Shown in pieces: positions 14,201 to 17,716 of a stretch of 36,739 bases of DNA. The translations under genes were made by a program, and so were the position numbers. Each line of letters starts with the position of its first letter. The first letter of the stretch is position 1. The stretch covers positions 1-36,739 of the forward strand of contig JAFWBO010000109.1 of NCBI GenBank assembly GCA_017507065.1. The letters are read 5' to 3'. The notes under the pieces were generated by a model that saw only the letters and a list, made by a program, of their open reading frames with translations, ran no database searches and was not told where the DNA came from. Source of the stretch: Kiritimatiellia bacterium (GTDB lineage Bacteria > Verrucomicrobiota > Kiritimatiellia > RFP12 > UBA1067).

Positions 14201-14446
14201 ATACTCGAAAACAAAGGATCTCTCGACGAGGCCGAGAGCTGTTCGAAGAAGGCCTGCGAGCTTTCCCGCGACAAGACGGGCCGCCAGACGGACATACGCA
14301 TGTTCATCACTCTGGCGAGAATCCAGAAGGCAAAAGGCGAGATGGCCAAGGCCAGAGGCACGGCGCGCAGGGTGGCGGGCAGGATTTCCGAGCTTTCGCC
14401 TTACGAGCGCCAGGATTTCGAGGAGTTCATGAAGGGTGTTAAGTAG
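11258..14446 (+). CDS. DUF2723-like polytopic membrane protein with C-terminal TPR array
   Basis: This is the largest gene, 1062 aa. About ten hydrophobic segments fill residues 15-400. The first loop (APYAYPGQSAKLMAV, then VPHPFMRAVSSLFGYGNALS) and a later stretch (DWFITDGTVDDHLRL, then GKELHLVCLQRDF) follow the layout of DUF2723 proteins, a GT-C/protein-O-mannosyltransferase-like group. However, the usual D-S-G-E and H-P-P-G-Y-P elements are altered to QSAK and PHPFM, so glycosyltransfer is doubtful. From about 540 to the end are many TPR-type helical repeats (for example LALNDYAEALRRRGNAAEAE). The ATG at 11258 is used because AAGGAGA lies 7 nt before it; an earlier in-frame start at 11222 lacks this. 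The small CCCC-GCAA-GGGG hairpin is in the leader (11228-11239). It overlaps the next gene by 11 nt. Confidence 0.8.
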   Translation: MDKYGFKKADVSFKRIDWLIAAAFAAAGALLFYASMAPYAYPGQSAKLMAVWRGLDVSAYVPHPFMRAVSSLFGYGNALSPLCGAIAAAAAYLLVSRFIRTRFDDEEHGAAAYLETVPRTGGIAAALVFLLAPCVRTAASHLDQTMFDTAWMTVALVFSFGVSSRNAAAHAVSLAAMGVAAGLGFSDTPLFLLAFPVFAAAIAVAEDNRSGSAWRSIGIFAILFFATFLAWSYAVESDYSAYIDAHLSLFSQYVNLREKNWIAVFILAVLPFALSSTAAKRLFGKKSYPALWIYQSFATLLAFLAVVTPVSPSALMRPYGMYPVGATLLVAAATGYAAAYWHMRSIVAEKNLHRLGSRIVICFFAATFAISSLFSFFKFDRMEGAFADIVADRIVADLGARDWFITDGTVDDHLRLSAARAGKELHLVCLQRDFDGTYLDHLASVIAKTGIGGDRNSELGYSLKLGILPFVQDLISWAPDITKRLATYGAPDLWRYNEKAKIVPELLFFGADESVKPDVAAWESIKKVLPAPERWGSYRLWKEKDPMARMRLDIRRHIGFVANNRGVTLLDEGREDEAFDMFETVLGDIDADNVCALFNELEMMRGGYRRALAKKGTLTRRFNEIKDDPDRRYRLRPLYNYYGYIRNPDIFIRLGFDWARFGRRGEALSQIRRAIDFIPSENRNAIMNIMAALYADEYDKAKSRSIYEAVLAKDAGNHDALIGLMRLELMNGNKEKALEFLDKAIAESGDDPRARVEKAMAHLMRNEVSAARALLKAAADADVSNMQTWSLLAAATIQAIDAEKDVAKKAALTKELETDIIGTMEKQARDPSDYHLQTTRAFLLLHKGEKFRREARDAFMRVSKRNPAAAATSDIILGLDISLNDVVDAERQAKEVLRRNRRAPLANYVMGSIALQRGDWQEAEAFLRRAIDTENPLPLALNDYAEALRRRGNAAEAETYARKTVQTAPDLYVAWDTLASAILENKGSLDEAESCSKKACELSRDKTGRQTDIRMFITLARIQKAKGEMAKARGTARRVAGRISELSPYERQDFEEFMKGVK

Positions 14447-15557
14447 TCTTCTTCTTGCGGCGTCTTTCCAGATAGGTCCGTTCTACGAACAGAAAGAGTC
14501 GTATGCGGCCGTACGGCCGGTCGTTTCCCGCGAGGGGGAGACTGTCGATGTCGCATGGCCGCTCTTCACCCGGCATCGCGACTGGTGGCGTTTCGCATAT
14601 GTCGTGAACTGGCAGAGATCGGGCCGGGGCGGCTTCCAGTTTTCGGTGGCGCCGCTGTGGTTCAACGGCCGCGATCCCGACAAGGGCGCATACGCGGGGT
14701 TGTTCCCTCTGCTGGGTTCTCATCCGCACATCTTGACGGTGTACGATCTCAAATTCGGATTGTGGCCTCTCTGGATGCAATACTCGGTGCCGCGTCCGTC
14801 GGAGAAGAAATGGCTCGAGACGACTGTCGTCCTCTTCCCGTTTGTCAACTGGCGCAGCGACGGGTCGTGGGCCGTGTGGCCGCTGTACGGCGTGAAGCGT
14901 CAGCGCGAATCGCTCCACAGATACGCTCTCTGGCCTCTGTTCACGTGGGCTTCGTATTCGGAGGATCGCGACACGTCCGGAGCCGGGAGCTCCTGGATGT
15001 TCTGGCCGCTATGCGGATCTGTCTGCCGCGAGCGCGAAAGGCAGACGATGTTTCTTCCGCCTCTCTTTTCGTGGACCCGCACGTCCTCTCCGGCGCTCGA
15101 GGCGAAGGGCCGCGCCGGCGGCGGCTTCCGGCTGAGATGCCCGTGGCCGCTTTTCGAGATGGAGAAGACTCCGCGCCGTTCGCGTCTCAGCGTATTCCCT
15201 TTCTTCGAGGACGTCTCGCTTTCTAAATACGGCGGCGGCGGCGAGGAGTCGGGCGTAATGCGTTTCGGCTGGAAGGCCGTCGAGCTTTACCGGGAGAAGG
15301 GCGAAGTGCAAGAAGTGCGCGTGTTCCCGTTCTGGGTGAAAAACTCCGGCTACTTCAGACTGTGGCCTTTCTGGGAGACGTCTTCCTGCGGCGGAACGGA
15401 GAAATCGCGCTGTCTCGCTCTCCTGCCTATACGCTGGATTCCGGCCGTCGACAGGAACTGGTCGAAGTTCTGGACCTTTTATGAAAGAGAACTCACCGGC
15501 GGCGCGGTGAAGCATTCGCTCTTCTGGGGGATAATATCGTGGGGCGGCGGAGAATGA
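14436..15557 (+). CDS. W/F-P-L/F repeat protein of unknown function
   Basis: The 373-aa protein starts at a GTG overlapping the end of the TPR gene and begins with a hydrophobic stretch without basic residues. It is built from at least fourteen copies of a short aromatic motif, hydrophobic-W/F/x-P-L/F-aromatic, at 40 (AWPLF), 71, 89, 109 (LWPLW), 133 (LFPFV), 147 (VWPLYG), 165 (LWPLF), 189 (FWPLCG), 207, 236 (PWPLF), 253 (VFPFF), 297 (VFPFW), 309 (LWPFW) and 329 (LLPIRW). Spacing is mostly 14-30 residues, with charged, polar turns between. Tryptophan content is very high. This suggests successive beta-hairpins, as in a beta-barrel or beta-propeller with aromatic girdles, probably in the envelope. 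I know no named family. It is coupled to a UbiA-type prenyltransferase by ATGA. Confidence 0.8.
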   Translation: MLSSLLLAASFQIGPFYEQKESYAAVRPVVSREGETVDVAWPLFTRHRDWWRFAYVVNWQRSGRGGFQFSVAPLWFNGRDPDKGAYAGLFPLLGSHPHILTVYDLKFGLWPLWMQYSVPRPSEKKWLETTVVLFPFVNWRSDGSWAVWPLYGVKRQRESLHRYALWPLFTWASYSEDRDTSGAGSSWMFWPLCGSVCRERERQTMFLPPLFSWTRTSSPALEAKGRAGGGFRLRCPWPLFEMEKTPRRSRLSVFPFFEDVSLSKYGGGGEESGVMRFGWKAVELYREKGEVQEVRVFPFWVKNSGYFRLWPFWETSSCGGTEKSRCLALLPIRWIPAVDRNWSKFWTFYERELTGGAVKHSLFWGIISWGGGE

Positions 15558-16459
15558 CTCTCGAAAGATTGAAAGTGTGGATCAAAGCCGTCCGCGTCGA
15601 GCAATGGACGAAAAACGGCGTGGTGATGACGGCTTGGCTTTTTTCCGTCGCCGACTCCTCCCAGACGACGCTCGTGAGAGGATGGCAGTCGTTTCTCCTT
15701 GCATTTGCGATGGCCGGCGCTTTTTCCCTCGTCTCGTCGGCGTTCTACCTGTTCAACGATGTGGCCGACTACGATGCCGACCGTCTCCATCCCGTCAAGC
15801 GTTTCAGGCCGGTGGCCGCGGGGCTCGTCGACCGCATGGCAGCGGTGAGGGCGGGGCTCGTTCTTTTCGCGGCCGGCTTCGCCTATCCCGCGCTCGTGGT
15901 GATGATCATCCCTTCGCGCACGGTCGCGTTCGGGACGATTCTCGCATATACGGTGATGCAATGCCTCTACACCGGTTTCTTGAAGCGTCTGCCGTATGTC
16001 GACGTGATCACGCTTGCCGCCGGTTTCGTGCTGAGAGCCGTGGCAGGAGCGGCGATAATCGACGCGTACATTTCCCCCTGGCTTCTCGTTTCGACGTTTA
16101 CGCTTTCGATGTTCCTCGCATTCTGCAAGCGCCGTCACGAGCGCAGGTCCGCGCGCGCTTCGCGTTCCGTGCTTTCGCGCTACCATCCGCGAATTCTCGA
16201 CGCGGCCATTTTTCTCAGCGCGGCGGCCACGTTCGCGGAATATCTCGCATATACGCTTTTTTCGGCGATGGGCAGACGCTGTCCGCTTCTTGTGTTTTCG
16301 TCCGTTTTCGTCCTGGCGGGAATCGTTCGATACGTGCGGCTGGCCTGGACCGAAGAGGATGTCGGCCGTCCCGAGAAGATTCTTCTGAGCGACAGGATCA
16401 TGTGGAGCGTGCTGGCTGGATACGCAGCGGCGCTTTTTGCGGCGTTCGCCTGGCGCTGA
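15554..16459 (+). CDS. UbiA-family prenyltransferase, decaprenyl-phosphate phosphoribosyltransferase-like
   Basis: The 301-aa integral membrane protein has nine or so hydrophobic helices. The first Asp-rich motif is NDVADYDADRLHPVKRFRP (68-86), and DVITLAAGFVLRAVAGA near 152-168 carries the second. The RLHPVKRFRP and VLRAVAGA wording fits the subgroup that transfers 5-phosphoribose to decaprenyl phosphate (as in mycobacterial UbiA), more than ubiquinone or haem enzymes. If so, it feeds a lipid-linked pentose into an envelope glycan. The later epimerase genes (DprE1/E2) are not seen here. The ATG at 15554 overlaps the previous stop; a GTG at 15539 with GGGGGA 7 nt before it is a possible alternative start. 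folC follows after 9 nt. Confidence 0.82.
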   Translation: MTLERLKVWIKAVRVEQWTKNGVVMTAWLFSVADSSQTTLVRGWQSFLLAFAMAGAFSLVSSAFYLFNDVADYDADRLHPVKRFRPVAAGLVDRMAAVRAGLVLFAAGFAYPALVVMIIPSRTVAFGTILAYTVMQCLYTGFLKRLPYVDVITLAAGFVLRAVAGAAIIDAYISPWLLVSTFTLSMFLAFCKRRHERRSARASRSVLSRYHPRILDAAIFLSAAATFAEYLAYTLFSAMGRRCPLLVFSSVFVLAGIVRYVRLAWTEEDVGRPEKILLSDRIMWSVLAGYAAALFAAFAWR

Positions 16460-16468
16460 GATTTTCGC

Positions 16469-17716
16469 ATGGCTGAGAACCTTTCCTTTCTCGATATGCT
16501 CGCCAGGCTGCGGCGTTTCGGCGTCCGCCCGGGGCTCGACGGCATAACCGAACTCTGCCGACGTCTCGGCGATCCGCAGAAACGCGCCCGTTCGGTGCAC
16601 ATTGCCGGCACCAACGGCAAGGGGGCGGTCGCGGCGATGGTCGACGCGGCTCTTTCGCGCGCCGGCGCTGCGACGCTGCGCTACACCTCGCCTCATCTCG
16701 TAAGCGTGAACGAACGTTTTTCGATCTGCGGAAAAACCGTACAGGACGATCTTCTTGCGGAATGCGCCGCAGAAACTGAATCCGCCGCGGCCGGTCTCGA
16801 AATCACCTTTTTCGAAGCGCTCACGGCGATGGCTTTCCTCATGGCCGTGAAAGCGGGGGTCGACTGGATGGTGCTCGAGACCGGGCTCGGCGGCCGTCTC
16901 GACGCCACGAATATAGTCGAGAGCGACATTTCCGTCATAACGAAAATCGGCCTCGATCATTGCGGAGTGCTCGGGAACACGCTCGCCGAGATCGCCGCGG
17001 AGAAAGCCGGCATCGTCAAGGCCGGCCGGCCCGTGGTCCTCGGGCGCAACACCGACGAGGCAAGGCGCGTCGTGGAAAGCGCCGCCGCGGCCCGTTCGAG
17101 CCGTTTCGTATACGCCCCAGACATCGCCTCCGAAAGCGAGATTCCGCCGGCGTTTCCTCTTGCCGGGGCTTTCAACCGCGAGAATGCGGTGACGGCTCTC
17201 GCGGCATTGAAGACGCTCGCCGCCGGAGGCGTCGCCTGGAGCATAGACGGGTTCGCTGACGTCGTATGGCCCGGCAGATTCCAGACGATAGGCGACGTCG
17301 TCGTCGACGGGGCCCACAATCCCCCCGCCATGGAAGCGCTTGCCGCATCGCTCGACGGAGATGTCGTGCTCGTCGCGGGGTTCTGCGCCGACAAGGCAGT
17401 TGATGAGGCTCTTTCGGCGATCGCGCCGCGCACGGTCGAGGCTTTCGCGGTCAGGACAAACAGCCCCCGTTCGCTTGAGGCGGGAGAACTCGCCGCGAAA
17501 ATGCGCGCTTGCGGAATGGATGCTTCGCCATCGCCCTGTCTTGCATCGGCAATCGAAGAGGCCAGGCGCCGGGCCGCCGCGCACGGCGGCGCGAAAGTGC
17601 TCGTGTGCGGTTCGCTTTTCCTTGCGGGCGAAGCGCTCGTCCTCCTCGGCGCCGCGCCGGGCGCGGGACGTTTCGATCCAGAAGAGCCGCCTCCGGAGAC
17701 TTTAACAGGCGGGTGA
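16469..17716 (+). CDS. folC: Folylpolyglutamate synthase / dihydrofolate synthase
   Basis: FolC adds glutamate to dihydropteroate and folates. The 415-aa protein is a Mur-ligase-type enzyme: IAGTNGKGAV at 45-54 is the ATP loop, YTSPHL and NERF follow at 72-82, LETGLGGRLDATN is near 136-148, and ITKIGLDHCGVLG near 156-168 holds the His-containing metal and ATP region. VVDGAHNPPAME marks the C-terminal domain. The start has no clear SD. Folate supply matters to the AICAR transformylase at 24702, which needs 10-formyl-THF. The last bases of the gene contain the promoter of the next gene. Confidence 0.95.
   Translation: MAENLSFLDMLARLRRFGVRPGLDGITELCRRLGDPQKRARSVHIAGTNGKGAVAAMVDAALSRAGAATLRYTSPHLVSVNERFSICGKTVQDDLLAECAAETESAAAGLEITFFEALTAMAFLMAVKAGVDWMVLETGLGGRLDATNIVESDISVITKIGLDHCGVLGNTLAEIAAEKAGIVKAGRPVVLGRNTDEARRVVESAAAARSSRFVYAPDIASESEIPPAFPLAGAFNRENAVTALAALKTLAAGGVAWSIDGFADVVWPGRFQTIGDVVVDGAHNPPAMEALAASLDGDVVLVAGFCADKAVDEALSAIAPRTVEAFAVRTNSPRSLEAGELAAKMRACGMDASPSPCLASAIEEARRRAAAHGGAKVLVCGSLFLAGEALVLLGAAPGAGRFDPEEPPPETLTGG

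Follow-up and report, generated by a model that had tools for sequence, protein, structure and literature searches.

A protein with recurring W-P-L/F motifs, here called WPL, very probably belongs to the MlaEFD systems of Verrucomicrobiota, and we favour the view that it is their outer-membrane-side partner, filling the place that MlaA (and MlaC) occupy in Proteobacteria. The passage of lipids through the envelope of bacteria that have neither MlaA nor MlaC is an open question, for which WPL, characterized by linkage to mlaEFD, near-exclusion of MlaA and a fold without a known match, is now a named candidate. The WPL gene and its neighbours are arranged as follows in the window, i.e. the whole stretch of 36,739 nucleotides that was analysed (Kiritimatiellia bacterium, GenBank assembly GCA_017507065.1, contig JAFWBO010000109.1):

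11222..14446, + strand: membrane-TPR gene, matching many TPR families in Pfam and no DUF2723; conserved as a neighbour solely within this genus and its sister genera
14436..15557, + strand: WPL protein gene (373 aa), read from a GTG start to a stop codon that ends at 15557; candidate for the outer-membrane-side partner of MlaEFD
15539..16459, + strand: UbiA prenyltransferase gene, decaprenyl-phosphate phosphoribosyltransferase-like (PF01040, E=1.5e-20); outside the proposed system
16469..17716, + strand: FolC-like Mur ligase family gene (PF02875, PF08245); a genus-level neighbour outside the proposed system

WPL was found in all 23 other genomes of the same genus that were searched (52-65% identity, one copy being a contig-end fragment), and since these copies are also free of internal stops, the gene is regarded as real. 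Of 16 genomes belonging to other families of the order, 13 have it as well, at roughly 29-40% identity. A GTDB contig scan yielded 154 confirmed relatives, of which 80 were kept; these bear the labels Kiritimatiellae/Kiritimatiellota, Verrucomicrobia, Lentisphaerae or uncultured bacterium, and many of them are from ruminant gut. The 373-residue protein contains 11 [WF]P[LF] motifs, compared to a mean of 0.61 and a maximum of 5 in 20,000 residue shuffles; the recurrence described in the earlier note is thus genuine, while its count of 14 motifs corresponds to a looser pattern. Sixteen prolines recur at the strand breaks, with a spacing of mostly 13-31 residues and one gap of 43, and those at positions P15, 28, 42, 73, 91, 111, 135, 149, 167, 191, 209, 238 and 311 are conserved at 99-100% in an alignment of 183 WPL rows. 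It had also been remarked that no named family comes to mind for this protein, and the searches agree: no family in Pfam or NCBIfam matched the WPL of the window at E<=1, the Pfam profiles of MlaA (PF04333), MlaC (PF05494) and PqiC included, a profile search of PDB sequences returned nothing significant, the Foldseek comparison given below gave no significant match, and no description of WPL was found in the open-licence PMC papers.

The phylum-wide distribution of WPL was studied in a sample of 241 Verrucomicrobiota genomes. WPL was detected at a strong score in 109 of them, including 77 of the 81 genomes from the class of the window; the search gave 113 matches in total, but four weaker ones were set aside because they appeared to be other repeat proteins matched only in part. 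An MlaE was listed for 62 of the WPL genomes; in at least 50 of these, the WPL gene lies directly 5' of mlaE and on the same strand, and in the WPL operons that were read, mlaF and mlaD come after mlaE. The genes located upstream of WPL-mlaEFD differ: they encode OTCases in L104 and L028, a Zip transporter in L117 and a phosphoglucomutase in L119. Besides, MlaE is present in 109 of 109 genomes with WPL, compared to 113 of 132 genomes without it (p=9e-6, too small a value given that the genomes are related). In a tree of 58 MlaE sequences, a single 100/100 clade comprises 39 of the 43 WPL-linked sequences, three unlinked sequences from family f4 and four sequences from the genus of the window; MlaEs linked to MlaA and those of 'type 2' lie apart from it. 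The other four WPL-linked MlaEs, which come from other classes (families f37 and f53), are found outside this main clade on long branches.

In the genus of the window itself WPL is not linked to mlaEFD, and the MlaEFD genes of the same genome are located on another contig (C4, L151). The MlaE of this genome falls inside the WPL-linked clade, hence the genome has a cognate transporter that is separated from WPL. The WPL gene of this genus would then have parted from its operon and now reside in a cluster with the TPR and UbiA genes, with the cognate MlaEFD encoded on a different contig. An apparently broken-up operon was also seen in family f4 (L239-L242; G035 and G039), where mlaD is on a contig other than that of mlaE and mlaF. 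A WPL-mlaEFD operon occurs in L105, a record titled Akkermansia muciniphila, a label that may be wrong; the same operon is present in L104, from an uncultured bacterium, and the MlaDs of the two share 93% identity.

The neighbourhood seen in the window had suggested, in the earlier note, a coupling of the protein to a DUF2723/TPR membrane protein and a UbiA enzyme, and hence a part in glycan export or assembly. The gene order in this genus is Cys/Met-metabolism enzyme, TPR, WPL, UbiA, FolC, and the start of WPL is overlapped by the TPR gene by 11 nt. The conservation of the TPR-WPL-UbiA-FolC order across the genus, with overlapping genes, speaks for such a role, as does the resemblance of the UbiA enzyme to decaprenyl-phosphate phosphoribosyltransferases (NCBIfam match with E=6e-49, below the cut-off of that family). 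However, when co-occurrence with these genes was checked, the order proved to be restricted to the genus of the window: sister genera retain the TPR gene only, more distant families have neither, and the neighbour of WPL across the phylum is MlaEFD, whose cognate copy is still present in the genus of the window. Moreover, the Pfam matches of the upstream protein include many TPR families and no DUF2723, so this part of the proposed coupling falls away. We therefore consider action in glycan export or assembly together with the TPR and UbiA proteins highly improbable. The 11-nt overlap also raised the idea that the TPR and WPL genes are fused by a frameshift; this is not proposed, as the flanking sequence varies between species and no conserved slippery site was seen.

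Across the sampled Verrucomicrobiota, WPL largely excludes MlaA: MlaA was found in 93 of the 241 genomes, WPL in 109, and both in 10 (odds ratio 0.06, Fisher p=1e-18), although the relatedness of the genomes makes these p-values too small and the splits within families are the better evidence. Family f37 includes 16 genomes with WPL, four with MlaA and none with both, and families f50, f51 and f5 are split in the same way, in small numbers. Only three of the 40 nearest relatives have MlaA, and the same three have MlaC; WPL is missing from two of them, and in G029, the third, it is encoded in an operon separate from that of MlaA and MlaC. The MlaA domain in 93 of 241 genomes is at odds with the statement on MlaA in a 2023 survey (PMC10665443). 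Many of the MlaA domains in families f33, f39 and f45 are contained in open frames of about 600-800 residues, far above the length of ordinary MlaA. In the Mla pathway of E. coli, MlaA and MlaC are the exported components that work with MlaEFD on the outer-membrane side, the role that we propose for WPL; they share, however, no sequence similarity with WPL, which has an all-β repeat fold and largely excludes MlaA.

The assignment of WPL as a partner of MlaEFD is thus based on its linkage 5' of mlaE behind differing upstream genes, the near-exclusion of MlaA, and the presence of MlaE in all WPL genomes. Counting against it are the unlinked location in the genus of the window, the 10 of 241 genomes with both WPL and MlaA, and the four MlaEs outside the clade. 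The linkage to mlaE, as well as the export signals described below, would also fit a protein that assists the assembly or stability of the MlaD needle, or of the nearby outer membrane, while acting off the lipid path; as yet unidentified proteins aiding the folding of the MlaD barrel were raised in the 2023 survey (PMC10665443), and the strands of WPL are rather polar. On the other hand, the near-exclusion of MlaA points to WPL taking over from a transport component and not to an added helper, and we regard an assembly factor as quite improbable.

Judging from the sequences of its homologues, WPL is probably an exported protein. Most of them exhibit a hydrophobic N-terminal stretch resembling a signal peptide, and a lipobox was identified by script in 18 of 183 (and by eye in a few more), but not in the WPL of the window. 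In the genus of the window, only about ten hydrophobic residues precede the first GPF motif, which is below the length of a normal signal peptide, and export of WPL is therefore unproven in this genus. The placement of the protein in the envelope, suggested previously, is thus borne out by the signal peptides and lipoboxes of the homologues, but not by the short N-terminus found in the genus from which it was made. The many homologues whose signal peptide is an ordinary one without a lipobox would also suit a soluble periplasmic lipid carrier similar to MlaC, which would bind phospholipid on its hydrophobic edge and shuttle it between the membranes with no docking to the outer membrane; among the 40 nearest relatives, MlaC is indeed absent wherever WPL stands without MlaA. 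However, the lipobox in at least 18 homologues suits a membrane-anchored part, and the MlaDs that accompany WPL are long, unlike the short MlaDs found beside MlaA, which makes a shuttle less needed, and we find such a carrier unlikely.

The AlphaFold2 model of WPL, built with 68 sequences, is all-β (pLDDT 90.9, pTM 0.72), in good agreement with the regular β repeat protein anticipated in the earlier note. It comprises about 37 strands of 3-8 residues, and the breaks between them alternate between turns and W-P-L/F sites of 3-4 residues. Residue covariation, calculated from 183 sequences (effective number 146), supports an antiparallel meander independently of the model as far as the pairing signal is concerned, the strand positions themselves having been taken from the AlphaFold2 model. 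The antidiagonal signal amounts to 1.57 at turns and 0.99 at W-P sites, compared to 0.50 at mid-strand controls (p=2e-8 and 5e-5, respectively), and covariation between adjacent strands averages 1.81, versus 0.75 for non-adjacent ones. The antidiagonal signal at the W-P sites indicates that the chain probably reverses there too, which would put every W-P turn on the same edge of the meander. A proline-kink topology, in which the chain runs straight through the W-P sites, was also considered, but covariation centred on these sites favours chain reversal. The W-P turns are hydrophobic (+0.81), in contrast to the other loops (-0.71) and the strands (-0.48). When contacts that would close the sheet were looked for, no pairing of the first with the last strand stood out in the covariation. 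The strands are short and on average polar. Comparison of the model with the PDB and with viral models by Foldseek gave nothing at E<=0.001, and there was no significant match to a MORN, OspA or propeller fold, with low TM values. Single-layer β-meander proteins (OspA, the TCP10 G-box, MORN repeats), which share the antiparallel meander with WPL, are among the weak matches, but they differ in the repeat motif, reach a TM of only about 0.2 or below, and none of them matches at E<=0.001.

Location of WPL at the outer-membrane side is suggested by the signal peptides and lipoboxes, by the hydrophobic W-P turns, and by the report that the verrucomicrobial (PVC) MlaD is devoid of an outer-membrane barrel, for which the 2023 survey named no replacement (PMC10665443). 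The Mla system of Veillonella parvula (PMC10665443) resembles the WPL systems in having MlaEFD without MlaA and MlaC and a long MlaD; that MlaD, however, bears its own outer-membrane β-barrel, while in the PVC group the barrel is reported absent and a separate WPL gene precedes mlaE. Another likeness is to PqiC, an outer-membrane lipoprotein that tethers the periplasm-spanning MCE needle of the Pqi system (PMC10897342), given the lipobox in some WPL homologues; in contrast to PqiC, WPL has no Pfam match at all, forms one long meander and is partnered with an MlaE-type ABC system. The MlaDs of the WPL systems carry repeats of the form GxGTLGKLL, and the one that was modelled is predicted to comprise the MCE domain and helices; confidence is low for everything outside the MCE domain, and the C-terminal half is too uncertain to interpret.

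We are inclined to place WPL at that end of the MlaD needle which faces the outer membrane, with its W-P turns forming the edge that touches lipid or MlaD. MlaD would form a long, helical, hexameric needle pointing to the outer membrane, and WPL would be situated at its tip, on the periplasmic side of this membrane. The W/F-P turns, arranged in a row, would either dip into lipid or contact the hydrophobic C-terminus of MlaD, and phospholipid would pass at this point between the outer membrane and the needle. More tentatively, and with doubts outweighing our confidence, WPL may have a novel fold and be a third way, next to MlaA/MlaC and the barrel fused to MlaD, in which MCE lipid transport is completed at the outer membrane: a ring or arc with its W/F-P turns embedded in the inner leaflet of this membrane, receiving the tip of the MlaD needle, and used across much of Verrucomicrobiota.

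Two further observations concern the mlaD gene and what follows it. Most MlaDs of WPL systems (e.g. L151, L104, L117, L160) end in a hydrophobic motif similar to ETxPITxFxSLxxGL; such an end is absent from the short MlaA-linked MlaDs, and the MlaDs of family f53 end differently. On contig C4 of the same genome as the window, mlaD is followed by a gene for a protein of 477 aa (L151:2173-3606, - strand), also seen in L167 and L168, which has no Pfam match but exhibits an N-terminal signal-like stretch and an HEAFH...NEGYAQFFE motif resembling that of a zinc metallopeptidase.
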